64,000 bases of DNA from Desulfovibrio sp. MES5 (GTDB lineage Bacteria; Desulfobacterota; Desulfovibrionia; Desulfovibrionales; Desulfovibrionaceae): positions 186,001-250,000 of the forward strand of contig NZ_MJUZ01000011.1 of NCBI RefSeq assembly GCF_002237645.1. The letters run 5' to 3'. This document shows, piece after piece, positions 27,359-50,033 of the stretch. Within the stretch, counting starts at the first letter, position 1; each line of letters opens with the position of its first letter. Both the position numbers and the translations under genes were made by a program. The notes under the pieces were generated by a model, which saw only the letters and a list, made by a program, of their open reading frames with translations, was not told the origin of the DNA and did no database searches.

Positions 27359-28798
27359 TTACGAAGTGCCCGTGGTTTGGGCCTGCGGCGGTTCGTCCTT
27401 GCCTTTTTCAAAGGGGGGCGGGGGCCGCCACCGCCAGAACAGGGCCAGCAGAGGGATGAGGCCTGCGCCTTCGGCGAGCTCGCGCGGAGCAACTGTGCCG
27501 ACGCCCCACCACAGAACCACGCTTGAGGCGGCGGTGGCCAGCATGAGCAACCATTGCCCTGGGCTCATGGGGCGGGCTGTCCACTGGAAAAAGCCCACGG
27601 TAAGGATGGCGACCCATACCTTGGTAATGGTCAGGGAAAGCGCCGCCCCATCCAGCGGATTGGCTGGAATAAGCGTAAGACAGCAGACAATGTTGAGTAT
27701 GAGTCCGCTGACATAGAAGAGCAGCAGCAGGCGGTGGCGGCGCATGCCGATCATGGCGTAGGCGGCGAGGTTGTGCAGAAAGGCCGTGGCCAGGCAGGGG
27801 GTAAGCAGCTGCTGGGCGCGAACAGCGCTTTCATAGTTGTGGCCGTAAACAAGGGGCAAAAACCTGTCGCTCTCAACGCAGATAAGAAAAATGACGGGCA
27901 GGGCTGCCGCCCACAGGGAGCGGGCCGTCTGTCCGGCAAGTTGGCGGAAGGCGTTTCTGTCGTTCTGCCAGAATTTTGCCAGCAGCGGAAAGATAACCTT
28001 GCCGAGCAGGGCGCTGGATACCAGAACCGACAGGCCTTCTACGGTTTCCCAGGCCACGCCGTAGCCGCCCACATCGGCGTTGCCGCCGTACTGCTTGAGA
28101 AAAATGACGTTGATCTTGTTGTAGAACATGGCGCAGGCCGCCATGCAGGTGAAGATGAGGCCGTGCTTCATCTGTCGGGCAAGGTCAAGCATCCCCTCCC
28201 GGCCCACGCCCGCAAGAGGGTTGCGCCCCAGGGCGGCCAGCGCGAACACGACGCACAATATGGATTCAATGGGTTTGTACAGGGCAATGAGTATGGGCGG
28301 CGCGCCCATGACCACGCAGGTGATGCCAAAGCCGATGCCGATGAGCGCCGAAGGCACGCGGATGCGCATTTCCACATCCTGACGGCCACGGGCCTGGCAC
28401 AGCGCAAAAAAGGAGTCGCTGACGCCGTCAAGCCCAAGTCCTGCGGCAATGCACAGGACGATGAGGCGCAGTTCCGGGCTGTAGTTCTGCCAGCCGGTGA
28501 CAAGCCAGGTGACGGCCAGAGCCAGCACCAGCACCGTGAGTTTGAGCCAGGTCACTTCGCCCAGCAGGGCGCGGGGGCGGCCTTCACGCCGCGCAAAGGT
28601 GGACAGCAGAAAGTCGTTGAGGCCCACATCGGCAATGGTTTTTACCAGATAGCCAAAGGTAAGCGCCAAGACCACCTGCCCCATAATGTCGGGGCTGCGG
28701 CGGGCCAGCAAAATGGTAAAGGCTGCCCATGCCAGGTCGCGCGTCCATTGCGCGCCCAGAATGTAGCCGAGCCTGCGGGGAATGCTCTTGAGCTTCAT
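27359..28798 (-). CDS. Wzx-like polysaccharide/lipid-linked sugar flippase
   Basis: A 479-residue membrane protein with about 12-14 helices, resembling O-antigen/exopolysaccharide flippases of the MOP superfamily. Supporting features are GQVVLALTFGYLVKTIADVGLNDFLLSTFARR near the start, VGGYGVAWETVEGLSVLVSSALLGKVIFPLLAKF in the middle and a hydrophilic Pro-rich tail. It would turn a lipid-linked product over the inner membrane. It is the fourth and last gene of the leftward operon (PKS-like, TolC-like, HlyD-like, flippase), 9 bases after the HlyD-like gene. This placement suggests that the product of the PKS/AOS/glycosyltransferase locus needs flipping. Confidence 0.82.
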   Translation of the reverse strand: MKLKSIPRRLGYILGAQWTRDLAWAAFTILLARRSPDIMGQVVLALTFGYLVKTIADVGLNDFLLSTFARREGRPRALLGEVTWLKLTVLVLALAVTWLVTGWQNYSPELRLIVLCIAAGLGLDGVSDSFFALCQARGRQDVEMRIRVPSALIGIGFGITCVVMGAPPILIALYKPIESILCVVFALAALGRNPLAGVGREGMLDLARQMKHGLIFTCMAACAMFYNKINVIFLKQYGGNADVGGYGVAWETVEGLSVLVSSALLGKVIFPLLAKFWQNDRNAFRQLAGQTARSLWAAALPVIFLICVESDRFLPLVYGHNYESAVRAQQLLTPCLATAFLHNLAAYAMIGMRRHRLLLLFYVSGLILNIVCCLTLIPANPLDGAALSLTITKVWVAILTVGFFQWTARPMSPGQWLLMLATAASSVVLWWGVGTVAPRELAEGAGLIPLLALFWRWRPPPPFEKGKDEPPQAQTTGTS

Positions 28799-28807
28799 GT
28801 GGGGGCT

Positions 28808-29770
28808 TTACCTGCTGCCCCCGAAACGCACAACAGCCTTGAAGCCGGGCTTGAGTTCCAACTCCGGGTTGGGCACGGTGATTTCCACCGTGTAGTACGA
28901 GGGGTTGGCAACATTCATATCATTAGAAACCCATGATATTTCAGTTACCGTGCCCGTAAATGTCTTGTTGCCAAGCGAGGGTATTTCCACCGCGACGCTG
29001 TCGCCTTCAGAAATGCCGCTGACCTCGGCTTCATACACCGGCACCTGGATAAGCACGGGATTAAGCTGTCCCACCTTGATGGGGGCGCTGCCAGCGGGGA
29101 GCAGGGTGCCTGGGTTGAGCGTGGCGTCCAGGGACAGCACATAGCCCTTGAGGGGCGAGGTCAGGGTCAGGGTTTCGGGCAGAATTGCCCCTTCCTTGAT
29201 TTCCTGCCCGTAGTAGCTGCTCAGTTCCTTGAGGCGAATGTTAAAGCTGTCTTCGGCCTTTTTGATGGTGATGCGGGTGAGTTCGATGCGCCGTTGCAGG
29301 GAGGTCACGTCCTCCTCAAGACGGCTCGAAGCCTGACGCGAGCCGAGGCCCGACGCCGCGAGCTGGCGCGCCTTGTTGCGCTGGGCAATGGTTTCCGCCA
29401 GCCGGCGTTCAAGGTCCAGCACCTGGCTGTTGAGGCTTTCCGTGCTGGCCCCTTGCATCACTTCGCGCTGCACAGCGCGCTCCGCATCTTCATGCAGGTG
29501 GTAGCGCATAAGGGGCGCGCCTTCGTCAACGGGATCCCCTGGCTTGACCAGCACGGAATCCACCACAGCGTTAAACGGCATGGGTATGGCGCGGATGACC
29601 GTGGTCACCACCTTGCCTGTAAGAATGGTCCCGCCTGATTTCGGGGCGTCCGCTGCAAAGGCCGACACGGTGAAAGTCAGGACGAGCATAAGGGCCGATG
29701 CCAGGCCCAGCGCCCCCTTGCGGAACCGATGGACTGAGCGTGCGGAGCTGGTGCGGGAAGAGCGCGCCAT
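28808..29770 (-). CDS. HlyD-like periplasmic adaptor (membrane fusion protein)
   Basis: A 320-residue protein with an N-terminal signal or anchor (ALGLASALMLVLTFTVSAFA), a split lipoyl/barrel-sandwich domain (AVVDSVLVKPGDPVDEGAPLMRY at about 68-90, then LTSPLKGYVLSLDATLNPGTLL), and between them an alpha-helical hairpin rich in Gln/Arg/Glu (about 90-190). A beta-barrel segment with YEAEVSGISEGDSVAVEIPS follows. Such adaptors bridge an inner-membrane component to a TolC-type channel. The start at 29770 overlaps the stop of the TolC-like gene as TAATG, so translation is coupled. No ABC or RND pump is encoded here; the flippase downstream is the only inner-membrane transporter. Confidence 0.85.
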   Translation of the reverse strand: MARSSRTSSARSVHRFRKGALGLASALMLVLTFTVSAFAADAPKSGGTILTGKVVTTVIRAIPMPFNAVVDSVLVKPGDPVDEGAPLMRYHLHEDAERAVQREVMQGASTESLNSQVLDLERRLAETIAQRNKARQLAASGLGSRQASSRLEEDVTSLQRRIELTRITIKKAEDSFNIRLKELSSYYGQEIKEGAILPETLTLTSPLKGYVLSLDATLNPGTLLPAGSAPIKVGQLNPVLIQVPVYEAEVSGISEGDSVAVEIPSLGNKTFTGTVTEISWVSNDMNVANPSYYTVEITVPNPELELKPGFKAVVRFGGSR

Positions 29771-31233
29771 TACAGCACCTCCTTGGCGGGCAGACCGAGG
29801 AAACGTTCCTGAAGCGAGGTGGCAAGGTACATCCATTCAAGCTGGGCCAGTTCACAGGCAAGTTCGGCCCGGATAAAGGCGATCTGGGCCTGCACCATGG
29901 CTTCCTGCTTGTCGGCCACGGCGGGAAGCTCCGCGATGCCTTCGTTGAAGGAAATGTGGGCTTCCTTGTACTGCATGGCCGCCGTGTCAAAGCGCGTACG
30001 CGCAAGTTTGAGCTCGGTTTCGGCCAGGGCCATGTTCTGTTCTGTCTGCAGCCATTTGTTGGAATAGTCCGTGCGTTTGCGGGCCATGTCGTGGAAGGCC
30101 TGGGCCTTCACCATGCGGGCGGTCTGCACGCCACGGTAACGGCGGCCCCAGTCCAGCAGGGGGAAGTCGAAGTTCAGGTGCAGGAAGGTGTCTTCAGTGC
30201 CGCTGGCGGGCTGGTATTGCCCCGAAGGCGGGTTGTTGTTGACGCTGATGCTCATGTTGGGAATGTACTGGGCCCAGGCGACCATGATGTTGTAATCGCC
30301 CAGCTTTATCTGGCCGCGCAGCAGCAGGTCGTCTTCAGTGGTGTTCCAACGGTCGTCCCACTTGAGGCCGCGTCCGTTGAAGCCCCTGAGGATTTCGTCC
30401 GCGTTGGCGGTGTCCACGTCAAGCCTTTGCTGCGGATCCACGCCCGCAAGAATTTTCAGCTGGGTAAGCTGCATGGTTTCCTTCATCTTGGTCTGTTCCA
30501 CCATAAGCTCAAGCTCGCGCTGGTGCTGCATGGCCAGATTGAGGGAAACGCCCTGGCGGCCGTCCACGGCTTCCACCTGCTGCCAGTAGGAGACCAGTTC
30601 CTTGCCGATGGGCAGCAGGTCTTTTTGTACTTTTACGATTTTTTTCTGCGCCTGCAGTTGCAGGTAGGCCTGGGCAATCTTGTAGATAGCTTCGCCCACG
30701 GCCTTGCGGTGCGTGGAAATGGCCAGGTTGACCATGGCCTTCTGCACCTGATGCTCAAAATAGGTGGCCACAGGGTTGGGAAAGGCCGCGTAGAAACCCA
30801 CGGAAAGCTTGGTGCGGCCGTAGTCGCCGGGAGTGTCCTTGTTGTCCATGTTGTTGCGGGTGAGGTTGTTGGTCACCTGCATGGTCATGCGGGGTTCGGG
30901 CAGGTACTTCCAGACGGCGTCGGTAAGGGCCACCCGCTTGATTTCCAGATCCACGGCGCTGTTGACCAGCAGGGGCGACTGCTGGATGGTCAGGAAGACG
31001 CAGTCTTCAAAGGTGAAGACCTTGCTGGGATCGTAGAGGTTGGGCACAGCGGCCTCAAGCTTTGTCTTGTTTTCCACCGGCACGCCGGGCGCTTCTTCCA
31101 GCCAGTGCTTGGCCGGAAGTTCCGGGGATTTGAGCCCAGCCTTATTGGAGGCGCATGCTGAGAAAAACAAGGTCATGACAAGCAGCAGCGGCAGATATGC
31201 ACGCGCTGAGAGAGTACGTATAATATGCGGCAT
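29770..31233 (-). CDS. TolC-like outer-membrane efflux lipoprotein
   Basis: A 487-residue outer-membrane channel of the TolC/OEP family, with a lipoprotein signal (LLLVMTLFFSAC, Cys about residue 27). The periplasmic helices form long coiled-coil stretches with two repeats (about 75-260 and 290-480). Strand-turn signatures include LPEPRMTMQVTNNLTR and YIPNMSISVNNNPPSGQY. It is co-translated with the HlyD-like adaptor and sits 66 bases behind the PKS-like gene, so the operon encodes an envelope-spanning export route together with a biosynthetic enzyme. Confidence 0.88.
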   Translation of the reverse strand: MPHIIRTLSARAYLPLLLVMTLFFSACASNKAGLKSPELPAKHWLEEAPGVPVENKTKLEAAVPNLYDPSKVFTFEDCVFLTIQQSPLLVNSAVDLEIKRVALTDAVWKYLPEPRMTMQVTNNLTRNNMDNKDTPGDYGRTKLSVGFYAAFPNPVATYFEHQVQKAMVNLAISTHRKAVGEAIYKIAQAYLQLQAQKKIVKVQKDLLPIGKELVSYWQQVEAVDGRQGVSLNLAMQHQRELELMVEQTKMKETMQLTQLKILAGVDPQQRLDVDTANADEILRGFNGRGLKWDDRWNTTEDDLLLRGQIKLGDYNIMVAWAQYIPNMSISVNNNPPSGQYQPASGTEDTFLHLNFDFPLLDWGRRYRGVQTARMVKAQAFHDMARKRTDYSNKWLQTEQNMALAETELKLARTRFDTAAMQYKEAHISFNEGIAELPAVADKQEAMVQAQIAFIRAELACELAQLEWMYLATSLQERFLGLPAKEVL

Positions 31234-31299: not shown

Positions 31300-34200
31300 C
31301 TAAAGCGCGGCGGCCCCGGTGTCCCGCCTGTTAAATTCAAGATGGTGGAGCGTGAGAAAGACGCGGCCCTGTTCGTCAGCGGCCTGGCCGTCAAAGCGCA
31401 ACAACGCAGGATCGGACCAGGAACGACGCAGCATTATACGCCATGGTCCCTTGCCCCTTTCGCTGCCAAAGCGAATGAATCCCGCCGCATGCAAGCGCCA
31501 GCGCGCAATGGCGGCGGCAACCGCCCCTGCGTCCATTTCGGCTTTGCCGGTACCCCGGGCAATAGCCAGCCAGGCGGACTGCACCATTCCCTCCACCACA
31601 TTCAGGACGTCAGTATAGCCTTTATTGCCATCGGGGGCAATGGCTGTATGCCGTTGATCCAACCACGCGGCATACTTGTGATTGGGCAGCACGGTAAAGT
31701 CCTGTAACATGCGCCAGGGTTGGCCGAAACCCAGTACGTTGTAAAAAACATCAGTATTAACAGTATGCTGCGTTACGCCTTCAGGCGCGTCTTCTCCATG
31801 CGCCCACATGGGCGGCACCAGCCCGTTGGCGGCGGCCAGCATGGTCATGCCCGCAGCCACCGGCGTGTAGCGCTCAATGTGTCTGCCGTTGGGCGTGAGC
31901 TCCCTAACGTCCAGCGTACTCCGGCACATGCGCGCCATGACGCCGTCCTGCATGAGCCAGGGTTCCGCCTCCACTGTAGCGCGGCATTCACGGGTAATGC
32001 CCGGCGGCAGCAAGGGAGGATCAAAAAAGCGCAGGTCTAAAAAGCCGGTGACCGTCAGCCAGGGCAGCCACAGGCTGGAGGCTTCCAGCAGGGCCGCCAG
32101 AGCCCGGCTCGTGGGCAACCAGGGCGTGTCGCCCGACGCGTTGCCCGGCTGACCGCCGTGCAGGGCGAGGGCCGTGTCGGCAAAGCGCGAATAGTGGCAG
32201 CCGCCCTGAAAAAGGGTGGAGGTAGCGCGGTAGGGAGGGTGCGGATCGGGGAAAACCAGGGGATACAGGCGCGGCCTTTCCTGAATGATGAGCCCCTGCG
32301 GCGCGGCTTCGTTCCTGGCCGCATGCCCGTGGACAGCGGCAGGCGCGGCCCGAAGGCCTGCGGCGGATGCGGCAAAGCCGGGCAGGGTTGTGGGCCGCAC
32401 CCACAAAACGTGGCGTGAGGTGCCCCTCAGAAGTTCGCGGGCCATCATGTCGCCCCAGTCATTCAGACCGGCGCGCAGGCTTCTTTCCAGCAGGCGTATG
32501 GTGCGGGCGCCCACGCCCGCCTCTTCTCCAAGTTCATCAAATCGTTTTTCCAGCGGGCTGTCGCAGTACAGGTTTTCCAACGTGGGCTGCAGCAGACTGC
32601 ACAGGCATGCGTAGCGCAGGCCGTGTATCTGGGTTGCCCGCATGGCTGCGGCCAGCAGTTTGGGCATGCCGACGGCGGCAAAGGAAACGGGTGAAAGGAG
32701 CGGAGCGGCATCCTGTTCTTCTCTGCCGTAGTGGCCGCCAGGCGCGAAGATCAGGCCGTCTACCCGGCCCTCGCTGTTTGCCAGGCTTGTCAGGGCGGTG
32801 GCGACTTCCTCCGCCAGGGTCTGGGCCTCGGGGGCGTCGCGCGGAATACGCGTTTCAAGGTTGAGCGGCACAATACGCGCGCCAGCTTTGGCCAGCGGCG
32901 CGCATGCCTCAACCTGCGCGCGCGGCACGGCCAGCACGCAGCCCAGTGGGGCAAGACCATTCATGAGTGAGGGCAGCAGGGCTGACTCAAAGAACAGCAG
33001 GGCCAGAATATCTCCCCGCCGGATGGGCAGGCCCTGGCCGCAGGGGTCCAGCGGCAGCGACTTGGGGAACGGACCGGCATTTTCGCCTTTTCCCCTGCTT
33101 TCGATCTGGGCGCTCCGGTGCAGCGGAGTGAAGCGGCACAGCGGGGCGCAGGCCCGCACAAGCGCCTTCTGGCGGACACCGGCCTGACGGACGGCCTCGG
33201 ACGTATCGGATTCCTTCGTTTCGCCAATGCCGGACGCGCCAAGAATACGCGCAAGGTCGCCCACTGTGGACACTTGCAGCAGGTCTTCAAAGTTGACGGT
33301 GATATCCAGCGCCTTTTCCACTTCCTGAATGATGAGCGGAAAACGGCTGGAACGCAGGGCCAGGTCGTAGCGCAGGTCCAGGTCTGGCCGCATGTCTTCC
33401 ACCGAGCGGCCGCTGGCGCGGGCCAGCACGTCCAGAACCACGCGCAGGGCTGCCGCTGACGATACGGAGTCGGCGGCATTGGCGGATTCGGGCGCACCCC
33501 CAGGCGTGGGCGCAACGGCGGGAGCCGCCACAGGTGTCGGTGAAGCTTCCGGTGCCGCCGTGGGGCAGGGCGTGCCGCTGTTGGCGTCGCAAATTTTCAC
33601 GCAGCCGGGGCCGCAGTCGGGGCCGGTGCCCGGGCTGCTGTCAGGCCCGCAATCCGGCCCGCAATCCTGCGAGTCCACGGGGACAAGGCCGCAGTACGGC
33701 AGCGGCATATGCGCAGCCACGACTGCGTCCTTGCCCTGGCGAATATCGGAGATGCGGGCGTTGATGGCCTTTTTGCTCAAATACCCGAGCGCGTACAGGC
33801 GCGCGCACGTCTGGCGCATGCCTTCCACTTCCTTGCCCTTGCGCCCGGCAGACAGGCAGAACGCGCGCGGCTCATTGTCCTTGACCAGGCCGCAAAGCGT
33901 GTCCTGCGGGCCCAGCTCCAGAAAGTGGCGTATGCCGTCTCTGCGCCATGCCGCGTGTACGCATTCGGTCCAGCGCACGGAATTTTCATCCAGATCGGCG
34001 ATGTGGCGGCTGATGGACGGCTGGTCGTCAGGATAAAAATTCGTGGTGATGCAGCTCATTATGGGAATGCGCGGCGGGTGCATTTCAAGCGCATTGAGGC
34101 GTCGCAGCGAAAGGTCGCGCAGCATGCGCATGCTCGGGTGGTGGAAGGCCAGGCTCACGTTGAGCATGATGGCCGGTATGCGCCGCTTGCGCAGGCTTTT

Positions 34201-35784
34201 GCGGGCATCCATCAGGACTTCGCGCGGCCCGCTCAGGATGAACTGCTGGGGAGTATTGTAGTTGGAAACGTACAGGGCGGGCCATGCGGCGCGCGTCTCG
34301 TCAATGATTTCTGCGCTGGCGTGCACGGCCATCATGCCGGTCTCGCGCGTGGCGGCTGCCTCCAGTTCGGACATGTGCACGGCGCGGGTGTCAAGTATGT
34401 ACCAGGCCACTTCCGGCTCGTAGATGCCGCAGAGGCACAGGCCGATCAGCTCGCCCAGGCTGTGCCCGCAGAACAGCGAGGGCCGCAGCCCGAGGGAGGA
34501 AAGAACGCTCCACTGCGCAAACTCGAGCATGAAAAGGTAGGGCGACTGCCAGCGCGTGAGGCTGACTTTTTCAGCGTCCTTTTCATCCATAAGGCCGAGC
34601 ACATCCCAGTCGGCCACCGCGGCGATACGGTCCATTGCGGCGCGGGCCACAGGGAAATTGTCGTACAGTTCGCGGCCCATGCCGGGCCATACAGAACCGA
34701 GGCCGCAGCACATGACGGCAAGGGGCGGGGCATCTGCTTCCGGCGAGAGCCAGACGCCGCGCCCTTCAAAGCGGGCCAGGTCAGTGGGGGAGGGATTGTG
34801 CGGCACGGCCAGCAGTTCGTGCCGCCAAAGCGGATTGGTGGCCCCCATGCGCCACATCAGACCGTCCTGGGGCAAATTCGCGTAACGCACGCCGTCCAGA
34901 ATGAGTTCTCCCTGCGGGTCCTGGCCTTCCGGGGCGGCGGGGCTGGAAACAGAGATCTGGCCCGCGCCCGCAGTGAGCCCGCCGGGCTGCCAGAGCGCTG
35001 GCGTGGCGTTTGCGTTGGGGCGATCAGACTTTTGCTGCAGGGGGTTTTTGCGGCACCTGAGCGTGTCGCAGCACGGAGGCGTGGGGGCAGGCAGGCTCAA
35101 CAGAAGCGGCTGGCACTGCAACTGGAGCGAATCGTCTGTCTGAAAATCCAGCAGAAGAATGGTAGGCACGCGCCCTGCCTGCGGACGCATGGATTGTTCA
35201 TCGCCCAAGGCGCGGTCTGCGTCGGAAGCGTAGTAATCGGGGCACTGCGGCATGCTGACGCCCATAGTGTCGGGCTGCGGGGCGCTGCCGTTCATGCACG
35301 GATAGATGGCGTTTGCCTCCGAGCCCGTGCCACGGGCCGCGCGCAGCAGCCTTTCGCATTCCCTGAGGTGCGCGGGATGAAAAGATTCAAATTGCAGGCG
35401 TACCGGCCCGAGGCGCCACAAGTTTTGCAGTCCTTCCAGGGCAAGGCTCAGAGACTGGGCCAGAGCGGAGGGGGTGGCGGATTCGTTCCAGTACAGGCAG
35501 AGCATGACGGGGCCCGGGTTTTCCACAAGCTTGAGCCAGTCAAGGCAGTGCCGGATCAGCGTCTGAGCGCACACCTGACCGGAAGAGGCGCCGGATTCTG
35601 CCGGATTTTCAGCGCCGGGGCAGGAAAGCGTGATGCTTGGAGGCGACGCCACAAGCAGTCCGTCTTCAAGAACGGCGCTGTCTGGCGTACTGGCCTTGTC
35701 TGGCGAAGTGCCGTAAGCTGGGGCAGGGTCTTGCTGCATAAATTTGGGGCCTGTGGCGCGGGGTTGGTCAAATGGCCAAGCCAT
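31300..35784 (-). CDS. PKS-like multidomain protein (AT-ACP-KR-DH) without ketosynthase
   Basis: A 1494-residue protein with polyketide/PUFA-synthase-like order but no ketosynthase. Residues 1-350: unrecognised. About 355-690: acyltransferase with GHSLGE (Ser about 442), LAFHHPSM with the catalytic His, and DTRAVHM retaining the Arg that binds the malonyl carboxylate; the usual GQGSQ is altered to GLGSV. About 700-760: Pro/Cys linker with DCGP units. About 780-855: acyl carrier domain, with Ser in LALRSSRF in place of LGxDSL. About 910-1150: degenerate Rossmann/ketoreductase-like region (VDGLIFAPGG, then NDWGDM) lacking a clear GxGxxG. About 1170-1490: hot-dog dehydratase-like domain. First gene of the leftward operon; divergent from an alpha-oxoamine synthase. 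A Met at residue 16 is an alternative start. Confidence 0.85.
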   Translation of the reverse strand: MAWPFDQPRATGPKFMQQDPAPAYGTSPDKASTPDSAVLEDGLLVASPPSITLSCPGAENPAESGASSGQVCAQTLIRHCLDWLKLVENPGPVMLCLYWNESATPSALAQSLSLALEGLQNLWRLGPVRLQFESFHPAHLRECERLLRAARGTGSEANAIYPCMNGSAPQPDTMGVSMPQCPDYYASDADRALGDEQSMRPQAGRVPTILLLDFQTDDSLQLQCQPLLLSLPAPTPPCCDTLRCRKNPLQQKSDRPNANATPALWQPGGLTAGAGQISVSSPAAPEGQDPQGELILDGVRYANLPQDGLMWRMGATNPLWRHELLAVPHNPSPTDLARFEGRGVWLSPEADAPPLAVMCCGLGSVWPGMGRELYDNFPVARAAMDRIAAVADWDVLGLMDEKDAEKVSLTRWQSPYLFMLEFAQWSVLSSLGLRPSLFCGHSLGELIGLCLCGIYEPEVAWYILDTRAVHMSELEAAATRETGMMAVHASAEIIDETRAAWPALYVSNYNTPQQFILSGPREVLMDARKSLRKRRIPAIMLNVSLAFHHPSMRMLRDLSLRRLNALEMHPPRIPIMSCITTNFYPDDQPSISRHIADLDENSVRWTECVHAAWRRDGIRHFLELGPQDTLCGLVKDNEPRAFCLSAGRKGKEVEGMRQTCARLYALGYLSKKAINARISDIRQGKDAVVAAHMPLPYCGLVPVDSQDCGPDCGPDSSPGTGPDCGPGCVKICDANSGTPCPTAAPEASPTPVAAPAVAPTPGGAPESANAADSVSSAAALRVVLDVLARASGRSVEDMRPDLDLRYDLALRSSRFPLIIQEVEKALDITVNFEDLLQVSTVGDLARILGASGIGETKESDTSEAVRQAGVRQKALVRACAPLCRFTPLHRSAQIESRGKGENAGPFPKSLPLDPCGQGLPIRRGDILALLFFESALLPSLMNGLAPLGCVLAVPRAQVEACAPLAKAGARIVPLNLETRIPRDAPEAQTLAEEVATALTSLANSEGRVDGLIFAPGGHYGREEQDAAPLLSPVSFAAVGMPKLLAAAMRATQIHGLRYACLCSLLQPTLENLYCDSPLEKRFDELGEEAGVGARTIRLLERSLRAGLNDWGDMMARELLRGTSRHVLWVRPTTLPGFAASAAGLRAAPAAVHGHAARNEAAPQGLIIQERPRLYPLVFPDPHPPYRATSTLFQGGCHYSRFADTALALHGGQPGNASGDTPWLPTSRALAALLEASSLWLPWLTVTGFLDLRFFDPPLLPPGITRECRATVEAEPWLMQDGVMARMCRSTLDVRELTPNGRHIERYTPVAAGMTMLAAANGLVPPMWAHGEDAPEGVTQHTVNTDVFYNVLGFGQPWRMLQDFTVLPNHKYAAWLDQRHTAIAPDGNKGYTDVLNVVEGMVQSAWLAIARGTGKAEMDAGAVAAAIARWRLHAAGFIRFGSERGKGPWRIMLRRSWSDPALLRFDGQAADEQGRVFLTLHHLEFNRRDTGAAAL

Positions 35785-36092
35785 AATGAGGGTTGGTTAA
35801 GAGCAGTATGTTAGAGTATATCGATCCTCTTGTCCAGAAGTCGGGCGGAAAATAAGCCCCGGCGGCAGCGGCTGTGGGGCTCTCTCGACGCATCCAACCG
35901 GCTGGCATGATGGTGAAAGCAGGCCCCGGGGCGTCACCGTGTCGTGCTGGCAGGCAATAGGCATTCCGCACTTGCCATAGGTTGACGGTTTAGCTATACT
36001 GGCTCCTTACAAAGTTGCGCCCTCTGCTCGGCCGCTTGCTGTCGGTTGCGGGCCGGTGCATTTTTTTTGGACAAATTTTAAGAGGATACGGC
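35785..36092. promoter_or_regulatory. divergent promoter region between the PKS-like and oxoamine synthase operons
   Basis: This 308-base region drives both arms. Rightward: TTGCCA (35972-35977), 17-bp spacer, TATACT (35995-36000). Leftward: a TATACT hexamer near 35815-35820 on the reverse strand, but no good -35. No operator palindrome was recognised. Confidence 0.6.
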
Positions 36093-37412
36093 ATGAAGAA
36101 CGACCATTCCTGTCAGGCTGGCCAAGAGGCGGCGTCACCTGCTGCCGCCGCAGAAAGCTCCGCAGGCGGTTTCAGCCGCATGCGTTCCAAGCTCGCCTTT
36201 GACCGGCTTGTGGAGATGGGAGCCAAGATGGGGATGGAAAATCCTCTTTTCCTCTGCCACGAACGGGCGGCCAAGGCCACCACGCTCATAGGCGGCAAGG
36301 AATATCTGAATTTTTCCACCTACGACTATCTGGACATTAACGCCCATCCGGAAATAACCGAGGCCGTTACCCGCGCTGCCACCGTGTATGGCACATCGGC
36401 CGGAGCCAGCCGCCTTGTGGGCGGCGAGCGCCCGCCCCACCGCGAACTTGAGCGCGCCTTTGCCGACCTGTACGGCGTGGAAGACTGCATCGTCTACGTG
36501 AGCGGCCATGCCACCAACGTGTCCACCCTCGGCTTTCTGCTGGGCCACCGCGACGCCATCTTTCATGACGGCCTGGCCCACAACTCCCTGGTGCAGGGCG
36601 CACGCCTTTCGCACGCCGCGCGCTACTCTTACAATCACAATGACTGCGACGCCCTTGAAGAAATGCTCAAGGCCAAGCGCGCCGAGCACAAACGGGCCAT
36701 CATCGTCACCGAAGGCCTGTTCAGCATGGACGGCAATATCCCCGACCTGCCCCGCATCATCCAGCTGAAAAAGCAGTATGACTGCATGCTGCTGGTGGAT
36801 GAAGCCCACTCGCTGGGCGTGCTCGGCAAGACCGGGCGCGGCGCGCACGAATATTTCGGCATCGACGCCAGCGAAGTGGATATGTGGATGAGCACGCTCT
36901 CCAAGTCCATGTGCGGTTGCGGCGGTTTTATCGCGGGCAAGCACGAGCTGGTGGAATTTTTGAAGTACGGCTCGCCGGGCTTTGTGTTCAGCGTCGGCAT
37001 GCCGCCCGTTATTGCCGTCGCCTGCCACAAGGCTCTGGAGATCATGTTGCGTGAACCCGAACGGGTGCACAAACTGCAGAGAATCTCGCAGTTCTTTGTG
37101 GAATATGCCGCCAGCATCGGTCTGGATACGGGCTCGGCCCAGGGCTATGCCATCGTGCCTGTGATGGTGGGCGATCCTATGGTGGCGGGCTTTTTGTCCA
37201 ATGCGCTTTTCAAGCGCGGCATCTACGTTATGCCCATCACCTTTCCGGCGGTCAAAGAAGGCACCGACAGGCTGCGCTTCTTCCTTTCCGCCGCTCACAC
37301 CGAAGAACACATCCGTCAGGCCCTGGACGCAGTGAAGGAAGAAATTCCCAAGGCACAGGCCATTGTTGAAAAGTACAAAAGCGAACACGCCGAAGAAACC
37401 CTGGGCGAATAA
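36093..37412 (+). CDS. alpha-oxoamine synthase (AONS/serine-palmitoyltransferase-like PLP enzyme)
   Basis: A 439-residue fold-type I PLP enzyme. This family condenses an amino acid with an acyl thioester and releases CO2 to form an alpha-aminoketone. Motifs: DEAHSLGVLGKTGRG (Asp about 236), TLSKSMCGCGG with the PLP Lys at about 271, and HDGLAHNSLVQGARLS for the substrate-side His. A ~45-residue Ala-rich extension precedes the core. The start at 36093 has AAGAGGATA upstream; a longer frame from 36015 lacks a ribosome site. It is not next to bio or kbl genes but divergent from a protein with its own acyl carrier domain and starts a glycosyltransferase operon. I infer a sphingoid-like or amino-ketone lipid role rather than biotin synthesis. 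Confidence 0.85.
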   Translation: MKNDHSCQAGQEAASPAAAAESSAGGFSRMRSKLAFDRLVEMGAKMGMENPLFLCHERAAKATTLIGGKEYLNFSTYDYLDINAHPEITEAVTRAATVYGTSAGASRLVGGERPPHRELERAFADLYGVEDCIVYVSGHATNVSTLGFLLGHRDAIFHDGLAHNSLVQGARLSHAARYSYNHNDCDALEEMLKAKRAEHKRAIIVTEGLFSMDGNIPDLPRIIQLKKQYDCMLLVDEAHSLGVLGKTGRGAHEYFGIDASEVDMWMSTLSKSMCGCGGFIAGKHELVEFLKYGSPGFVFSVGMPPVIAVACHKALEIMLREPERVHKLQRISQFFVEYAASIGLDTGSAQGYAIVPVMVGDPMVAGFLSNALFKRGIYVMPITFPAVKEGTDRLRFFLSAAHTEEHIRQALDAVKEEIPKAQAIVEKYKSEHAEETLGE

Positions 37413-37469: not shown

Positions 37470-38861
37470 ATGCCTTTAACCAGCGGCTCTGCCACAGAAG
37501 CGGGCGCAACAAGCGGCCAGCAGACCGTGCCGCCGATTGTTGCCTATGTGCTTCTCTGGTTTCCCCTGTCTTCAGAGACATTTATTTTTCGCGAGGTCGT
37601 GCAGCTTCGAAAGCGGGGAATGCGCGTATTCGCCTACAGCATGTATGGCGAAAACCTCAAGGGCTGCAGCGAAGAAATGCGCGCCTATGACGGCCCCGTG
37701 GGCCGTATGGGCATCAGGGCCGCCGGCAGCATACTGGCCGCTTTTGTGCGCGCCCTGCGCCAGCGGCCCGGGGCTACGTGGAAGCTCATGCGCGAAGGGC
37801 TTTTTCGCCGCATGCGCAACCTTGAAGCGGTGGGCGAAAATATCTGGTGCTTTCTGGCGGGCTTTGTTCTGGCCGAAAAGTGCCGCGAGGATGGCGTGCA
37901 GCTCATTCATGCGGCCTGGGCAAACGGCCCGGCCACAGCCGCCTGGGTGGCCTCGCGGGTGACTGGCATTCCCTTTGCCTTTACCGGCCGCGCCGGAGAC
38001 ATCTATCCTGAAGACGGCCTGCTCAAGGAAAAATCGCGCGACGCGCTGTTCATCCGCACCAACAATCGCACCAATGTGCAGTGGCTGCGCGGGTTTTGTC
38101 CCCCCGATGCCGCAGACAAGGTGCACGCCATCTACAACAGCCTTACCTTCCGTCCGCGCGGCCAGTGCGCCATGCCCATGCAGCCTCCCTACCGCCTTTT
38201 GGCCGTGGGCCGCTTTGCGCGCACCAAGGGCTTTCCTGAATTGCTCATGGCAATGGCGCGTCTGCGGCGTGAAAAGGTGCCCGTGACCCTGACCTTGGTG
38301 GGCGACGGCAACTGGCACCACAAGCTCGTCAAGATGCGTGATGACCTGGACCTCACTCAGGTAGTGGACATGCCTGGCTTTATTCCGCATGATAAAATCT
38401 GCGGATTCATGCTGGACCACGATATGCTCATCATGCCCAGCGTGGTGCACACCAATGGCGACCGCGACGGCATCCCCAACGTCATAATGGAAGCGCTTTC
38501 GCACCGCATGCCTGTTATCGCCACCGATGTGTGCGGCATTGCCGAGGTGGTCATAGACGGCGAAACCGGCCTGCTGGTGCCGCAACGCGACCCCCGCGCC
38601 CTGGCCAATGCGGTGCGCCGCATGGTGGCCGACAGGGACGCCGCCATGGCCATGGCCGAGGCGGGGCGGGTTCACGTTGAAAAACTTTTTGATCCCACGC
38701 GCAATATCACGACAGTCTATGAGCTGTATGTGGACCAATGCGCCGGGGCTGCGGGTTCTGCCGAAGCCGCCAGTGTTGCCGATACCGCCGGTGCCGCCGG
38801 GGGCCAACAGCAAAAAATCCCCGGCATGGCCGGCGCAGACGCGGAAAAAGAGGAAGTATGA
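37470..38861 (+). CDS. GT4-family glycosyltransferase (first paralogue)
   Basis: A 463-residue GT-B fold glycosyltransferase, likely retaining and using a nucleotide-sugar donor at the cytoplasmic face of the inner membrane. The C-terminal donor domain shows LLAVGRFARTKGFPELL (about 247-263), MPGFIPHDKICGFM, and the GT4 signature DGIPNVIMEALSHRMPVIATD (about 332-352). The N-terminal LLWFPLSSETFIFREV matches colanic-acid/amylovoran-type enzymes. The last ~40 residues are an Ala/Gly-rich tail. GGAGACTGAT precedes the start. Its stop overlaps the next gene (ATGA). It is paralogous to the GT at 39988, suggesting consecutive sugar additions. Confidence 0.88.
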   Translation: MPLTSGSATEAGATSGQQTVPPIVAYVLLWFPLSSETFIFREVVQLRKRGMRVFAYSMYGENLKGCSEEMRAYDGPVGRMGIRAAGSILAAFVRALRQRPGATWKLMREGLFRRMRNLEAVGENIWCFLAGFVLAEKCREDGVQLIHAAWANGPATAAWVASRVTGIPFAFTGRAGDIYPEDGLLKEKSRDALFIRTNNRTNVQWLRGFCPPDAADKVHAIYNSLTFRPRGQCAMPMQPPYRLLAVGRFARTKGFPELLMAMARLRREKVPVTLTLVGDGNWHHKLVKMRDDLDLTQVVDMPGFIPHDKICGFMLDHDMLIMPSVVHTNGDRDGIPNVIMEALSHRMPVIATDVCGIAEVVIDGETGLLVPQRDPRALANAVRRMVADRDAAMAMAEAGRVHVEKLFDPTRNITTVYELYVDQCAGAAGSAEAASVADTAGAAGGQQQKIPGMAGADAEKEEV

Positions 38862-39895
38862 GCCGCCCTGTGCTCTACCTTGCCGTCAGCCTGGACGTGG
38901 AGGAAGAGGGGCTATTTGGCGGCCGGTACGCGCGCCGGGGCTTCTCGACGGCCAATACCGCCAGCCTGGAACGGCTTGCCCCCCTGTGCGAGCGGGGGAT
39001 ACGGCCCACACTGTTCTGCGCGCACAGCGTTTTGTCCGATACGGCTTCCCGGCATGTGCTGGCGCAGATGCGCGACAGGCACGGGGCAGAAATAGGCGCG
39101 CACCTGCATCACTGGAATACGCCCCCCCTGACGCTTGACGGCCCTGGGGCCGACGCCGATCTGGCCGACAATGCCGCAAGCGTGCCCGCCGCCGCCGTGC
39201 CAGCGCCGCTCATGGCCGCCAAGCTTGCAAGCCTTATGGCCGCGGGCAGGGATTTTCAGTCCGCGCCGCTGACGTCGTTTCGCATGGGCCGCTGGGATCT
39301 GCACAAAAACCTCTGGCCCATACTGGCGCAGGCCGGAATACGGGTGGACGCCTCGGTGCGCCCTCTGCACTGCGGGGCCACGCCCCTGGCCGGGCCGGAT
39401 CATTTCGACGCTCCCCGCAACCCCTACTGGGTGACTGTCGGGCAGGAGCGCATTTTCGAGGTTCCGCTCAGCGTAACGCCTCTTGTGCGCCCCTTGCCGG
39501 GCCTGGTGCGTCGGGCGGCTCCCGGCTTGCGTCCGGGATTCAAGAACTGGGGCGCGCTGAGCCTGCTGCCCGTCTATCATCCCCTGTGGGCCATGCAGGC
39601 TGTTACCAGACTTTTTGCCGCCAGGGGCGGGCAGGTATTGTCGCTTACCTGGCACTCGTCGGAAATGATGCCGGGCGGCGCGCCCCATCTGCCTGACGCA
39701 GCAGCTGTGGACAGGCTCATGAACAAGATTTTGGCATGGACGGACTGGCTCACATCCCGCTGGGAGGTGCGCAGTCTGACCATGGACCAGTTGCGGGAAA
39801 CGCTGGGGCCTCGGGCTCCCGACAGTGCAGAGCTGCTGCGCGGCAACACTGCGGGGCGCGGCGATTGGGCGTACCCGCCCCAAGAAGCTCCATAG
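38858..39895 (+). CDS. polysaccharide deacetylase (NodB-like) family protein
   Basis: A 345-residue cytoplasmic protein with no signal peptide. The N-terminus LAVSLDVEEEGLFGG carries the metal/catalytic Asp region, followed by IGAHLHHWNTPP (about 70-80) with the His pair and FRMGRWDLH (about 137-145), all typical of NodB-like carbohydrate esterases. The C-terminal LSLTWHSSEMMPG supplies the later His. These enzymes remove N-acetyl groups from sugars. The start overlaps the stop of the preceding GT gene as ATGA, implying coupled translation. It is embedded between two GT4 genes, so it probably acts on the growing glycan or lipid-linked amino sugar. Confidence 0.85.
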   Translation: MSRPVLYLAVSLDVEEEGLFGGRYARRGFSTANTASLERLAPLCERGIRPTLFCAHSVLSDTASRHVLAQMRDRHGAEIGAHLHHWNTPPLTLDGPGADADLADNAASVPAAAVPAPLMAAKLASLMAAGRDFQSAPLTSFRMGRWDLHKNLWPILAQAGIRVDASVRPLHCGATPLAGPDHFDAPRNPYWVTVGQERIFEVPLSVTPLVRPLPGLVRRAAPGLRPGFKNWGALSLLPVYHPLWAMQAVTRLFAARGGQVLSLTWHSSEMMPGGAPHLPDAAAVDRLMNKILAWTDWLTSRWEVRSLTMDQLRETLGPRAPDSAELLRGNTAGRGDWAYPPQEAP

Positions 39896-39987: not shown

Positions 39988-41487
39988 ATGACAGAAAGCA
40001 AGACGAGTGAGCCGGTCACCCAGCAGCCATTTGAACCCGGTCTGCCACACGTAGCCTGCGTACTATTGTGGTACCCTCTGTTCACGCAGCCCTTTATTTT
40101 TCGTGAGGTACAGGGGCTCAGAAAGCGTCTTCCCGTCTCTGTCTACAGTTTGTATGGAGCCAACCTGCGGCACTGTTCCACAGAAATGCGGATGGCGGCG
40201 CGGCGGACCCACACTTTGGGCTCGCGGGCCATCTTCACCATTCTGGCCGAAGTGATGCGTCAGTTGTTTACCCACCCTCTGCGTCTGGGGCGTCTTTTCA
40301 GGCGCACCATGTTTCGCCGCTGGCGCTGCATTGAAACCATGGGCGAGAACCTCTGGGCTTTTTGCGCGGGAGTCTACCTGGCGCGGCAATTCACTGAAGC
40401 CGGCATTGACATGATCTACGCGCCCTGGCCGCGCGGCACGGCCACCGCCGCCTGGGTTGCGGGCAGTATTGCCGGATTGCCGTTCGCCACCTGCGCACGG
40501 GGCGACAATCTTGAACCGGCAGACCCGGATCTGGGCGCAAAACTCGATGCGGCCTTTTTGGTGCGCGCCAACAACGGCGCGGACAAGGCGCGTATTGAAA
40601 GCTTTGACCGGGGCCAGGCCAAGGGTAAGGTGGAACTCGTTTACAACGGCCTGACCCTGCCGCCTCTTGAAGACGTATCCGTGGCTGACCAGGCTGACCA
40701 GGCTGACCAGACAGGGCAGGCAGGGCAGACAGAACAGCCAAGGCAGGCTGGGCAGGAAGAGCGCGGGGCATCTTTGGCGGGGCAGGCTTCTCCGGCCTCC
40801 TGCGATTTCAGCGACGTTGCCCATTCCTTCCCGCAGTTGGAGGTGGTTTCTCCCTCGCCATCGCCTGTGCCCATGGCGCGGCCAGTGCGTCTGCTGGCTC
40901 TGGGCAGGTTTGACGTCACCAAGGGTTTTGACGTGCTGCTCCAGGCGTGCGGCTTGCTGCAGGACAGGGGGCTGGACTTCACCCTGACTCTGGCGGGGGG
41001 CGGCGGCACCGTGATGGGGCTTGGCTGCATGCAGGCCGAACTGACGCGCTTGCGTAAGGATCTGGGGCTTGAAGCCCGTGTGAGCATGCCCGGCCTCATT
41101 TCTCACAATGAACTGCCCCGGCTGCTCAAAGACCACGATATTTTTGTAGCGCCCTGCGTGGTGCACGCTTCGGGCCGTCGCGACGGCATCCCCAACACCG
41201 TCATCGAGGCTCTGGCCTACGGCCTGCCCGTGGTCAGCACCACGGTCAACGCGCTGCCCGAGGTAGTCCGGCACGGCAAGACGGGGCTTGCTGTACCGCA
41301 GCACGATGCCGAAGCCCTGGCTGGCGCTGTCGAAATGCTGGCCAATGATTCGGCCCTGGCGGCTGGCCTTGCCCGCAACGGCAGGCTGCTGGCGGCCCGG
41401 ATGTTTGACCCTGAAGCCAACAATGACCGTTTGGCGCGTATTTTCACCAATAATTACAGGTGTTGGAAAGAAACATGTGTGGAATAG
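39988..41487 (+). CDS. GT4-family glycosyltransferase (second paralogue, with Gln-rich insertion)
   Basis: A 499-residue GT-B glycosyltransferase that aligns with the one at 37470 (both share LLWYPLF/FPLS..FIFREV, YSxYGxNL, then DGIPNxxxEAL). The donor-binding half has LLALGRFDVTKGFDVLL (about 302-318), MPGLISHNELPRLL and GIPNTVIEALAYGLPVVSTT. Between the two domains (about residues 232-262) is an insertion built from ADQ/AGQ-type repeats that the paralogue lacks. Its end overlaps the asnB-like start by 13 bases. Likely adds another sugar in the same pathway. Confidence 0.87.
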   Translation: MTESKTSEPVTQQPFEPGLPHVACVLLWYPLFTQPFIFREVQGLRKRLPVSVYSLYGANLRHCSTEMRMAARRTHTLGSRAIFTILAEVMRQLFTHPLRLGRLFRRTMFRRWRCIETMGENLWAFCAGVYLARQFTEAGIDMIYAPWPRGTATAAWVAGSIAGLPFATCARGDNLEPADPDLGAKLDAAFLVRANNGADKARIESFDRGQAKGKVELVYNGLTLPPLEDVSVADQADQADQTGQAGQTEQPRQAGQEERGASLAGQASPASCDFSDVAHSFPQLEVVSPSPSPVPMARPVRLLALGRFDVTKGFDVLLQACGLLQDRGLDFTLTLAGGGGTVMGLGCMQAELTRLRKDLGLEARVSMPGLISHNELPRLLKDHDIFVAPCVVHASGRRDGIPNTVIEALAYGLPVVSTTVNALPEVVRHGKTGLAVPQHDAEALAGAVEMLANDSALAAGLARNGRLLAARMFDPEANNDRLARIFTNNYRCWKETCVE

Positions 41488-43400
41488 CCGGTATTTGCCA
41501 ACTGGACGCTTCGCCTCTTGACCCTCAGGCTCAGCACTGGGTCAAGGCCATGACCGATTGCATCGCCCACCGGGGGCCGGACGGCGAGGGGCAGTGGTTG
41601 CAAGGCCCTGTCTGCCTGGGGCACCGGCGTCTTTCCATCATTGACCTCGGCACGGGCGGCCAGCCCATGCACAGCGTCGACGGGCGCTATACGGTCGTAT
41701 TCAACGGAGAGATCTATAATTTCGCGGAACTCAAGCAGGAACTTGCCGCCAATGGCGCGCGCTTTTGCACCAGCTCCGACACCGAGGTCATACTGGAAGG
41801 CTACCGCCAGTGGGGCGTGGAGTGCCTGTCCCGCTTCAACGGCATGTTCGCCTTTGCTCTGTGGGATGCCCACAAGCAGCGCCTTTTCTGCGCGCGCGAT
41901 CCTTTTGGCAAAAAGCCCTTTTTCTATACCGTGCAGCAGGGCAGGCTGCATTTTGCCTCTGAACTGACGGCGCTTGAAAAAATTCCCGGCCTGAGCCTGA
42001 CCATGCAGCCCGAAGCTGTCATGCGCTACCTGGCCTATGAATATGTGCCCACGCCGCAGACCATCTATGGCGAGGTGGAAAGCCTGCCTCCCGCGCACTG
42101 GCTGCTGCTGGAGGGCGGCGTCCTGCGTACGGGCCGCTACTGGGACATGCCCATGCCCGACGAGAGCGACAGGCGCAACCCGGATCAGCTTGGCGAGGAA
42201 TTGCAGTTTCTGATGGCGCGCGCTGTGCGTCGGCGCATGGTCAGCGACGTGCCCCTGGGCGTTTTTCTTTCGGGCGGCATTGATTCGTCCATTGTGGCCG
42301 GGCTTATGGCGCGGCAGTCCCCCACGCCCATAAAGACGTTTTCCATCGGCTTCAGCGAAGCCAGCTATGACGAATCGCGCTATGCCCGCATAGTGGCCGA
42401 AGCTTTTGGCACTGACCACCATGAGCGCGTGCTTTCCGCCGAAGAGTGCGCCGACAACCTGCCCGGCATTGTCAGCAAAATGGACGTGCCCATGGCCGAT
42501 GCCTCGGTAGCGCCCACCTGGCTGCTTTCGGGCGTGACGCGGGAAAAAGTCACCGTGGCCCTTGGCGGCGACGGCGCGGACGAACTGTGGGCCGGATACG
42601 AGCACTACATCGGCTTCAAGGTGGCGGAATGGTACAACGCCCTGCCCGCGCTGGTGCGGCGCAAGGTTGTGGAGCCCCTGGCCCGCCGCCTGCCTTCCTC
42701 GGCAGGGTATATCAATCCGCGTCTGGCTGTGGCCACGTTTCTGCGGGCGGCCCAGGCCCCGGCCTGGCAGCGGGTGCAGACCATGCTCACCGCCTTTACC
42801 CCCGATATGCAGGCCGAAATTCTGACCGGAGCCTTCAAGGCGCAAGCGCCGGGCTTTCTTTCGCCGGAGCGCCTCTTCGCGCCCACGCGCGAGCACTTTG
42901 AGCACTGGCAGCCTTACAGCGCGGCCACGCCTTTGGCGCGGGCGTTCTACGTCTACGCGCACCAGTTCATGCTGGACGACATTTTGGTCAAGGTGGACCG
43001 CTGCTCCATGCTGCACGGCCTTGAAGTGCGCGCGCCCTTTTTGGACAAGGACGTGGCCGAATTCGCCGCGCGCCTGCCCGTGGATCGCAAGCTGCACGGA
43101 TTCAAGCGCAAGTGGCTGCTCAAGCGGGCCTTTGCAAATCTTTTGCCCCGCGAGATACTGTACCGCAACAAGCGGGGGTTTCAGATCCCCGTGGCGGAGT
43201 GGTTGCGCGGGCGCATGCGTCCCCTCATGGAAGACCTGCTCAGCCCGGACAGCCTCAAGGCCCAGGGCATCTTCAATCCTGCCGCCGTGCGCGCCCTCAT
43301 GGACGAGCACATTTCCGGCAGAGCCGATTTGCGCAAACCTTTGTGGACCCTGCTGGTCTTTCAGTTGTGGCGGCAGGCGCGCCAGCGTCCCGCTGCGTAA
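41475..43400 (+). CDS. asparagine-synthase (glutamine-hydrolysing) family amidotransferase
   Basis: A 641-residue AsnB-type enzyme. The start at 41475 makes Cys residue 2 (MCGIAGICQL), the Ntn-type nucleophile of the glutaminase domain after Met removal; an in-frame start five codons earlier would block it. The synthetase domain has the pyrophosphatase loop FLSGGIDSS (about 264-272) and LGGDGADELWAGYEHY (about 364-379). In polysaccharide loci these enzymes often amidate a sugar acid or other carboxylate rather than make free asparagine. Last gene of the rightward operon; overlaps the GT4 gene by 13 bases. Which carboxylate it amidates is unknown. Confidence 0.9.
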   Translation: MCGIAGICQLDASPLDPQAQHWVKAMTDCIAHRGPDGEGQWLQGPVCLGHRRLSIIDLGTGGQPMHSVDGRYTVVFNGEIYNFAELKQELAANGARFCTSSDTEVILEGYRQWGVECLSRFNGMFAFALWDAHKQRLFCARDPFGKKPFFYTVQQGRLHFASELTALEKIPGLSLTMQPEAVMRYLAYEYVPTPQTIYGEVESLPPAHWLLLEGGVLRTGRYWDMPMPDESDRRNPDQLGEELQFLMARAVRRRMVSDVPLGVFLSGGIDSSIVAGLMARQSPTPIKTFSIGFSEASYDESRYARIVAEAFGTDHHERVLSAEECADNLPGIVSKMDVPMADASVAPTWLLSGVTREKVTVALGGDGADELWAGYEHYIGFKVAEWYNALPALVRRKVVEPLARRLPSSAGYINPRLAVATFLRAAQAPAWQRVQTMLTAFTPDMQAEILTGAFKAQAPGFLSPERLFAPTREHFEHWQPYSAATPLARAFYVYAHQFMLDDILVKVDRCSMLHGLEVRAPFLDKDVAEFAARLPVDRKLHGFKRKWLLKRAFANLLPREILYRNKRGFQIPVAEWLRGRMRPLMEDLLSPDSLKAQGIFNPAAVRALMDEHISGRADLRKPLWTLLVFQLWRQARQRPAA

Positions 43401-45183: not shown

Positions 45184-45594
45184 CATGCGCCCAGCACTAA
45201 AATTCTATTGTATTTAGGGTGATTAACGTTGAAAAAAGGCGCCTGCTCTGACGCCGCATGAGGAAAAGCCGCGCCAACGCCATTATGGCAGGGACCTGCG
45301 TACGCCGCTGCCCGGGCAGTTTTTAAGAAAGACGGATCCAGTGCTTTTTTGAAGGGCTTTCAGATAAAGGGGCCGGTCTTCATGACCGGCCCCTTTATCA
45401 TTGAAACTGCGCCGTAATGCGTGTCATTACTGTGCGTGTATGGGTAACTTGATGTTATTTCAGGTGTTGTTGCTATTTTATGCATACAGCGTGTCTGTGT
45501 GGCACGGTTTATTGTCCAGTAGTATGCTACAAGTATGCGGAAAAAAGTTTTCGCGCTTACCAGCCGGGGTGATGCCCGGCATGAGGATATTTAT
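45184..45594. other. region between lipoprotein and Mop genes, with an isolated terminator
   Basis: About 410 bases without a protein gene. It contains the isolated terminator at 45365 and an inverted repeat GTAATG-CGTGT-CATTAC (45414-45430) that could be an operator for the Mop gene. A small RNA ending at the terminator is possible. Confidence 0.4.
45365..45397 (+). terminator. strong palindromic terminator with no adjacent gene
   Basis: Perfect stem TAAAGGGGCCGGTC / GACCGGCCCCTTTA around TTCAT. It lies about 240 bases after the lipoprotein stop and 200 bases before the Mop start. Confidence 0.75.
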
Positions 45595-46023
45595 ATGCAA
45601 ACGAGCGCAAGAAATGTTTTCAAGGGCAAGGTCGCGGCTGTGCATTCCGGCGCCGTCAATGACGAAATTGAAGTGGCCGTTGAGGGCGGGTTGAGCATCG
45701 TTGCCTCCATTACCCAGGTCAGCACCAAAAAACTGGGGCTCAAGCCCGGCGTGGAAGCCATTGCCCTGATCAAGGCCAGCTTTGTGCTGCTCATGAATGA
45801 CGCCGAAAACTATCTTTTGTCTACCCGCAACCAGTTTGCGGGAACCATCAGCAAGGTGACGCCCGGCGCTGTCAACGCCGAAGTGCAGGTTGACCTGCCT
45901 AGCGGCAAGGGCATTACAGCCATTGTCACCATGGGCAGCGTCGCCAGCCTTGGCCTGGCTCCCGGCAAAAAGGTCACGGCCATCGTCAAGGCTTCGCAGG
46001 TTATTCTGGCGGTGCCGAAGTAA
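45595..46023 (+). CDS. di-Mop (TOBE) molybdate/molybdopterin-binding protein
   Basis: A 142-residue cytoplasmic protein made of two tandem ~68-residue Mop domains. Each has the pattern N-x-F-x-G-x-(I/V)-x-x-(V)-x-x-G-A-V-N (NVFKGKVAAVHSGAVNDE at about 6-23; NQFAGTISKVTPGAVNAE at about 77-94) ending in A-x-x-KAS-x-V. Mop proteins bind molybdate or tungstate oligomerically and act in storage or buffering. The start at 45595 has GAGGATATTT upstream. A MoeA-like gene lies 2 kb away on the other strand; no Mod transporter is present. Regulation by oxyanion is likely, but no ModE box was identified. Confidence 0.9.
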   Translation: MQTSARNVFKGKVAAVHSGAVNDEIEVAVEGGLSIVASITQVSTKKLGLKPGVEAIALIKASFVLLMNDAENYLLSTRNQFAGTISKVTPGAVNAEVQVDLPSGKGITAIVTMGSVASLGLAPGKKVTAIVKASQVILAVPK

Positions 46024-49849: not shown

Positions 49850-50033
49850 TGTATCCTCCTGGGAAGGGCAAGGGGCGTGAATGGACGGAAGGAGAGAATC
49901 TACCCAACAAACATACATCTTCACGGCACACATGCAAATACTTGTTGCGGGCATGCCGCCCTGAGCCGTATTGCGTGCTGCCGCGCCTGGGCGTATAGTG
50001 ATTCTTTATATGTAACCTCAACCCTGCGGCGGC

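Follow-up and report, generated by a model that had tools for sequence, protein, structure and literature searches.

Judged by sequence comparison, the gene at 31300-35784 on the minus strand of the window (the whole stretch of DNA that was analysed, 64,000 nucleotides of Desulfovibrio sp. MES5) encodes what is, in other Desulfovibrionaceae, the C-terminal half of an intact Pfa-like megasynthase; it is neither a PUFA synthase nor a local oddity. The product, here called MEGA, has no ketosynthase (KS), and no KS was found in any MEGA orthologue examined. The parts of this picture, i.e. Pfa-like synthases and pairs of a polyketide synthase (PKS) with an alpha-oxoamine synthase (AOS), are already known. 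A report of a KS-less, genus-wide protein paired with a SgaB-like AOS, or of this locus, was not found in the open-access literature searched, which gives an incomplete coverage with subscription papers outside its scope.

MEGA is listed among the open reading frames of the window with 1494 aa, whereas the longest stop-free run in 200 base shuffles of this 5-kb region was 497 codons. The true start is probably residue 16 (MQQD...), since close orthologues begin there. The gene and its domains are as follows:

31300-35784, minus strand: KS-less AT-ACP-pseudoKR-DH protein MEGA, annotated with 1494 aa, probable true start ATG at 35739 (residue 16)
34930-35739, minus strand: variable N-terminal region, residues 16-285, different or missing in most orthologues, no KS seen in the sequence
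33865-34734, minus strand: acyltransferase (AT) domain, residues 351-640; Ser442, Arg467 and His548 invariant
33229-33459, minus strand: acyl carrier domain (ACP), residues 776-852; RSS motif, predicted phosphopantetheine site Ser812 (window 33349-33351)
32365-33072, minus strand: pseudo-ketoreductase (KR), residues 905-1140, SDR-like; nucleotide motif and catalytic K/S/Y/N lost
31315-32292, minus strand: dehydratase-like (DH) double hotdog, residues 1165-1490; His1209/Glu1398 dyad in the window protein, not invariant across the genus

Pfam recognised Acyl_transf_1 at residues 359-631 (2.7e-31) and PP-binding at 782-847 (8.9e-6). All the motifs cited in the first-pass annotation of this DNA were located when their positions were mapped: GLGSV at 361-365, GHSLGE at 440-445, Arg467 (within DTRAVH), AFHH at 546-549, LRSSRF at 810-815 and NDWGDM at 1108-1113. 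Two AlphaFold models were used. The model of the ACP-KR-DH part had a mean pLDDT of 83; that of the N-terminal-AT part had a mean of 68, most of the AT scoring above 90 while residues 1-285 stayed largely under 60.

The absence of a KS had been claimed in that annotation, and the searches bear it out. Pfam gave no KS in MEGA even at E ≤ 1, residues 1-350 showed no sequence-profile match to a KS, and some orthologues begin with the AT or close to it. The first 285 residues differ among orthologues or are absent, and the shortest forms (811-812 aa) consist of AT-ACP-DH. A thiolase-fold KS in residues 1-350 was rejected as a candidate, with no Pfam or profile match, and so was a KS-bearing form in L086, a 1080-aa open reading frame in which some 660 aa precede the AT; L086 is N-rich and its upstream part matches no family. 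Some KS-AT structures align to residues 35-285 through the C-terminal half of their KS, with an overall rmsd of 14-18 Å and in a low-pLDDT model. A half-thiolase-like relic at about residues 40-285 is possible from the model, while sequence profiles give it no support; even if real, it is without the half of the fold that bears the KS nucleophile.

The AT was proposed to be an intact one of the malonyl type, which agrees with its invariant residues and with its predicted fold, since the model matched solved ATs with Z 35-39 (best 6iyo_B, Z 39; FabD 1mla, Z 36). It shares with FabD and the malonyl-type ATs of PKSs the active-site Ser, His and Arg as well as the fold (Z 36-39), but differs from them in lying beside an RSS-type ACP and in reading GLGSV, not GQGSQ. 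The latter change, reported earlier as an altered motif, is real but partly local, as many orthologues keep GQGSV. The ACP-like region is a four-helix carrier domain; it is single, not tandem. Its serine context, LRSSRF, had been called unusual, and it does have Arg in place of the usual Asp before the predicted phosphopantetheine serine. However, this is not damage: the RSS context was found in 40/40 MEGA orthologues and in 5/5 KS-bearing Pfa-like PKSs, and a damaged-ACP reading is thereby ruled out. Ser812 is invariant and is predicted from the sequence to be phosphopantetheinylated; the window genome contains three PPTase-type (PF01648) matches.

Sequence and model alike indicate that the middle of MEGA is a degenerate SDR/KR. 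As first described, it has no dinucleotide motif and keeps NDWGDM; K/S/Y/N are absent too. All KR catalytic positions are lost in the orthologues, nine of the 40 having the segment deleted. Because the structural matches are dominated by DH and AT, the KR-like fold has no match of its own there and is assigned from profile alignment and the topology of the model. That a dehydratase-like domain closes the protein was also seen correctly: the C-terminus aligned with PKS dehydratases (7cpx, 3kg8) at Z ~25 over 265-286 residues and ~3 Å. Like the DHs of CurJ and lovastatin synthase it is a double hotdog (Z ~25 over ~270-286 residues), but unlike them it has Glu at the catalytic Asp position, and its His and Glu are not invariant in orthologues (His kept in 24/40, Glu/Asp in 35/40). 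The Glu is a family trait that also occurs in KS-bearing relatives. The residue pattern suggests that the DH active site is eroding. With a pseudo-KR devoid of catalytic residues and a DH site that is not strictly conserved, MEGA would therefore not perform a KS-AT-ACP-KR-DH cycle.

In a first sample of 37 Desulfovibrio genomes, 36 had a MEGA orthologue, the exception being a 63%-complete assembly. When 84,980 species genomes were scanned, 55 MEGA loci came up, all titled Desulfovibrio, Desulfovibrionaceae or Deltaproteobacteria. Within the family the KS-less form occurs in 42 of 247 genomes, and it is kept even in genomes of 1.4 Mb. Compared with three close species, dN/dS was 0.09-0.16 for the AT, 0.02-0.14 for the ACP, 0.18 for the DH, 0.16-0.45 for the pseudo-KR and 0.32-0.83 for the disordered linker. 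The low values indicate that MEGA is in use and that its catalytic core is the AT plus the ACP.

Its origin is suggested by proteins of 2,430-2,620 aa in other Desulfovibrionaceae genera, which contain FabK/NMO, KS, AT, one to three ACPs, KR and DH. The collinearity of MEGA with these KS-bearing Pfa-like PKSs begins at the KS-AT linker and runs through to the C-terminus (hhalign E=3.5e-69 for the AT part and 4.5e-37 for the ACP-KR-DH part). In the AT tree, MEGA and the Pfa-like ATs fall together, apart from HR-PKS ATs at 100/97, with weak support (84/58) for the exact place of MEGA among them. Homologues of asnB, GT4 and wzx genes lie within ~9 kb of the Pfa-like PKS in two KS-bearing genomes, so that the MEGA locus looks like its counterpart. 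Of the Pfa/secondary-lipid synthases, PfaA is arranged as KS-MAT-ACPn-KR-DH, and uncharacterised Pfa-like types occur in Deltaproteobacteria (Shulse and Allen 2011, PMC3098273). MEGA resembles PfaA in its AT-ACP-KR-DH order, in line with the likeness to Pfa/PUFA-type synthases pointed out earlier, in its DH fold and in its collinear homology to the Pfa-like PKSs of sister genera. In contrast to PfaA, it has no KS and no ER, one ACP, a pseudo-KR, an eroding DH, no PfaB/C/D-type partner and a constant AOS partner. Single-polypeptide Pfa-like synthases with N-terminal FabK/NMO and up to three RSS-type ACPs were seen in L127 (9728-17578), L129, L131, L132 and L133; the one in L127/L128 has genes for UDP-GlcNAc 2-epimerase and UDP-sugar dehydrogenase nearby.

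The genes around MEGA are the following:

27359-28798, minus strand: Wzx-type MOP flippase (annotation and orthologous loci)
28808-29836, minus strand: HlyD-type periplasmic adaptor (annotation and orthologous loci)
29770-31233, minus strand: TolC-family outer-membrane protein (OEP), annotated; conserved next gene in orthologous loci
35808-36000, both strands: divergent promoter region, sigma70-like by consensus match only (plus 35972-36000, 10/12; minus 35836-35808, 9/12)
36093-37412, plus strand: AOS of the BioF/SPT superfamily, PKS-associated clade, divergent from MEGA
37470-38861, plus strand: GT4 glycosyltransferase, EpsE-like (annotation and orthologous loci)
38858-39895, plus strand: conserved operon protein, polysaccharide-deacetylase-like by inspection only, no family match
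39988-41487, plus strand: second GT4 glycosyltransferase (annotation and orthologous loci)
41460-43400, plus strand: AsnB-type amidotransferase, XrtA/EPS-like (annotation and orthologous loci)

The genes fall into two recurring, conserved operons, MEGA-TolC-HlyD-Wzx and AOS-GT4-(deacetylase-like)-GT4-AsnB. Most often these are divergent, but they stand apart in several genomes, and a physical handover is therefore not implied. The homologue of the deacetylase-like protein beside the Pfa-like PKS of L127 gave a weak match to an XrtA deacetylase model (E 0.0085). The neighbourhood resembles XrtA/EPS clusters in its AsnB amidotransferase, GT4 enzymes and Wzx flippase; it differs in that no exosortase was recognised among the annotated neighbours, in the HlyD/TolC pair by the flippase, and in having an AOS and an AT-ACP protein. 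By neighbour annotation, a PfaD-type ER and PfaB/C partners are absent from the locus. The operon has no ABC or RND pump to go with its TolC-HlyD-Wzx set (27359-31233), an unusual export combination that is conserved throughout the genus. Elsewhere in the window, a protein with tandem Mop (molybdenum-pterin binding) domains is encoded just downstream of the AOS operon region (45535-46023, plus strand), and a 703-aa protein (47843-49954, minus strand) is MoeA-like by inspection, its C-terminal part being of the substrate-binding type.

The oxoamine synthase had been named as a possible partner of MEGA, and the distribution of the two genes argues for this. A close AOS orthologue (69-100% identity) was found in 41 of the 42 MEGA carriers and in none of the 205 non-carriers of the family (Fisher p 4e-46, which overstates the association because species are not independent); in the first sample the figure was 35/36 carriers. 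No AOS was detected in the carrier G027 (80%-complete), and G063 has one at 52% only. Among the five genomes with the KS-bearing form, G255, G276, G271 and G080 have no close AOS and G191 has one at 53%; the AOS link thus appears newer than the MEGA protein family. In a tree without SgaB, the AOSs linked to MEGA make up a clade (100/100) that lies within the HR-PKS-associated AOSs and apart from BioF/Kbl-like outgroups. Their nearest relatives beyond this clade (50-63%) lie directly downstream of a complete type I HR-PKS in 12/12 loci examined. The AOS-associated PKS in L112 reads KS-AT-DH-MT-ER-KR-ACP by Pfam. A complete PKS of this type directly upstream of an AOS, an SgaAB-like arrangement, was observed in several Desulfovibrio and in many other Desulfovibrionaceae (L112:4837-15606, L141-L152); in L112, OPX and ABC-2 capsule-export genes come next. 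The SgaAB PKS-AOS pair of Pseudomonas fluorescens MYb115 makes sphinganines, SgaB being a serine palmitoyltransferase that takes long-chain acyl groups (PMC12134224). The MEGA locus is like SgaAB in that its AOS is of the PKS-associated type, with its closest relatives directly downstream of complete type I PKSs. It is unlike SgaAB in that the SgaA-type PKS is replaced by a KS-less protein of another PKS lineage, and in that glycosyltransferase and export genes are linked. No complete PKS stands beside the window AOS; the two PKS-type KSs of this genome are on contig C3.

The explanation that we prefer, and hold with belief and doubt about evenly balanced, is that MEGA is a dedicated AT-ACP platform for a FAS II-built chain that is released by the AOS as an amino-ketone lipid, then glycosylated and exported. 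We infer malonyl specificity, FAS II elongation, the amino acid, the product and the export route as follows. A Pfa-type ancestor (FabK-like ER-KS-AT-ACP(1-3)-KR-DH) would have lost ER and KS and kept the AT and one ACP, while losing KR and DH chemistry. The AT would charge the ACP of the same protein, at Ser812, with a malonyl-type unit. Shared FAS II enzymes (KS, KR, DH, ER) would build the acyl chain in trans, and MEGA could have lost or eroded its own KS, KR, DH and ER because FAS II would supply those steps. The SgaB-like, PLP-dependent AOS would release the chain through a decarboxylative condensation that joins it to an amino acid (probably serine), giving a sphingoid-like amino ketone, which the GT4s, the AsnB-type amidotransferase, Wzx, HlyD and TolC would glycosylate, flip and export as an envelope glycolipid. 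The sampled Desulfovibrio probably make an unrecognised sphingolipid-like envelope molecule. Two results count against a sphingoid lipid: no SgaC-like KDS-reductase SDR was recognised in the adjacent operons, and no ceramide-synthase gene was identified.

Alternatively, the AOS may be the sole condensing enzyme, a reading that we find doubtful but take seriously. The AT-ACP would give a malonyl-derived short unit directly to the AOS, which would form a small alpha-amino ketone on an exported glycan, the PLP enzyme having replaced the KS. SxtA of saxitoxin biosynthesis is a parallel. Such a role would suit the lack of a conserved dedicated KS among carriers, the near-constant AOS of the KS-less form as opposed to its absence from the KS-bearing G255, G276, G271 and G080, and the lost or eroding KR and DH chemistry. 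However, the nearest AOS relatives adjoin complete PKSs, SgaB uses long-chain acyl groups (PMC12134224), and FAS II could always provide a chain. It is unlikely that the AT-ACP instead provides malonyl or other acyl groups that decorate an exported polysaccharide, the AOS serving a parallel step and not acting on the MEGA ACP. The linkage of the MEGA operon to GT4, AsnB, flippase and TolC genes would fit, and only the AT and the ACP are strictly kept as catalytic parts, but the locus has no recognised glycan acyltransferase, AOSs of this lineage are otherwise found next to PKSs, and the co-occurrence of MEGA and AOS persists where their operons are apart.

Elongation in trans by FabF or FabB was part of the first-pass proposal, and it survives only as far as the KS shared with FAS II is concerned. 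We consider it very improbable that MEGA and a discrete KS dedicated to it, acting in trans, together make up a split type I/II PKS. The window genome encodes four PF00109 proteins: two of the PKS type on contig C3, a FabF whose gene belongs to a fab-type set, and an orphan FabF-like KS of 409 aa on contig C5 that could be such a partner. However, the orphan occurs in only 3/31 same-genus genomes searched, the window genome retains no KS of Pfa-like class, and four MEGA carriers (1.4-2.5 Mb, one being a single 1.4-Mb contig) hold one KS each, FabF-sized at 418-420 aa. Since these four have a single KS, elongation in them, if any, must use the FAS II enzyme. A KS split off to elsewhere in the window genome was rejected by the genome search, and the ER region had only a 27-bit match elsewhere in that genome. 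Contig C3 itself carries, at ~24.8-50.5 kb (L003, L108, L109, L139), a PKS cluster with two KS-bearing proteins, one of which has a carrier domain and a condensation-like tail, and an Sfp-size PPTase match. That MEGA is a decaying, functionless pseudogene, as the missing KS and ER, the lost KR residues and the variable N-terminus might suggest, can hardly be squared with dN/dS values far under 1 for all folded domains, invariant AT and ACP motifs, and retention in nearly all sampled species, 1.4-Mb genomes included.

Desulfovibrio are common sulfate reducers of the gut. Across this genus of gut and insect-gut bacteria, a megasynthase lineage is without a KS and yet under purifying selection, 1.4-Mb genomes included, and this selection and retention point to a core function in the envelope and away from secondary metabolism. 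The wider claim, that a PLP-dependent AOS replaced the KS as the condensing enzyme of a Pfa-type lineage in Desulfovibrio and that a KS-less AT-ACP platform feeds a genus-wide, unrecognised sphingolipid-like envelope glycolipid pathway, is offered tentatively, with our doubts outweighing our confidence. The locus yields a search rule for lipid loci that would be invisible to KS-based searches, namely an RSS-type ACP beside an AT together with a SgaB-like AOS. It also raises a testable question: whether Desulfovibrio contain sphingoid-type or amino-ketone lipids.
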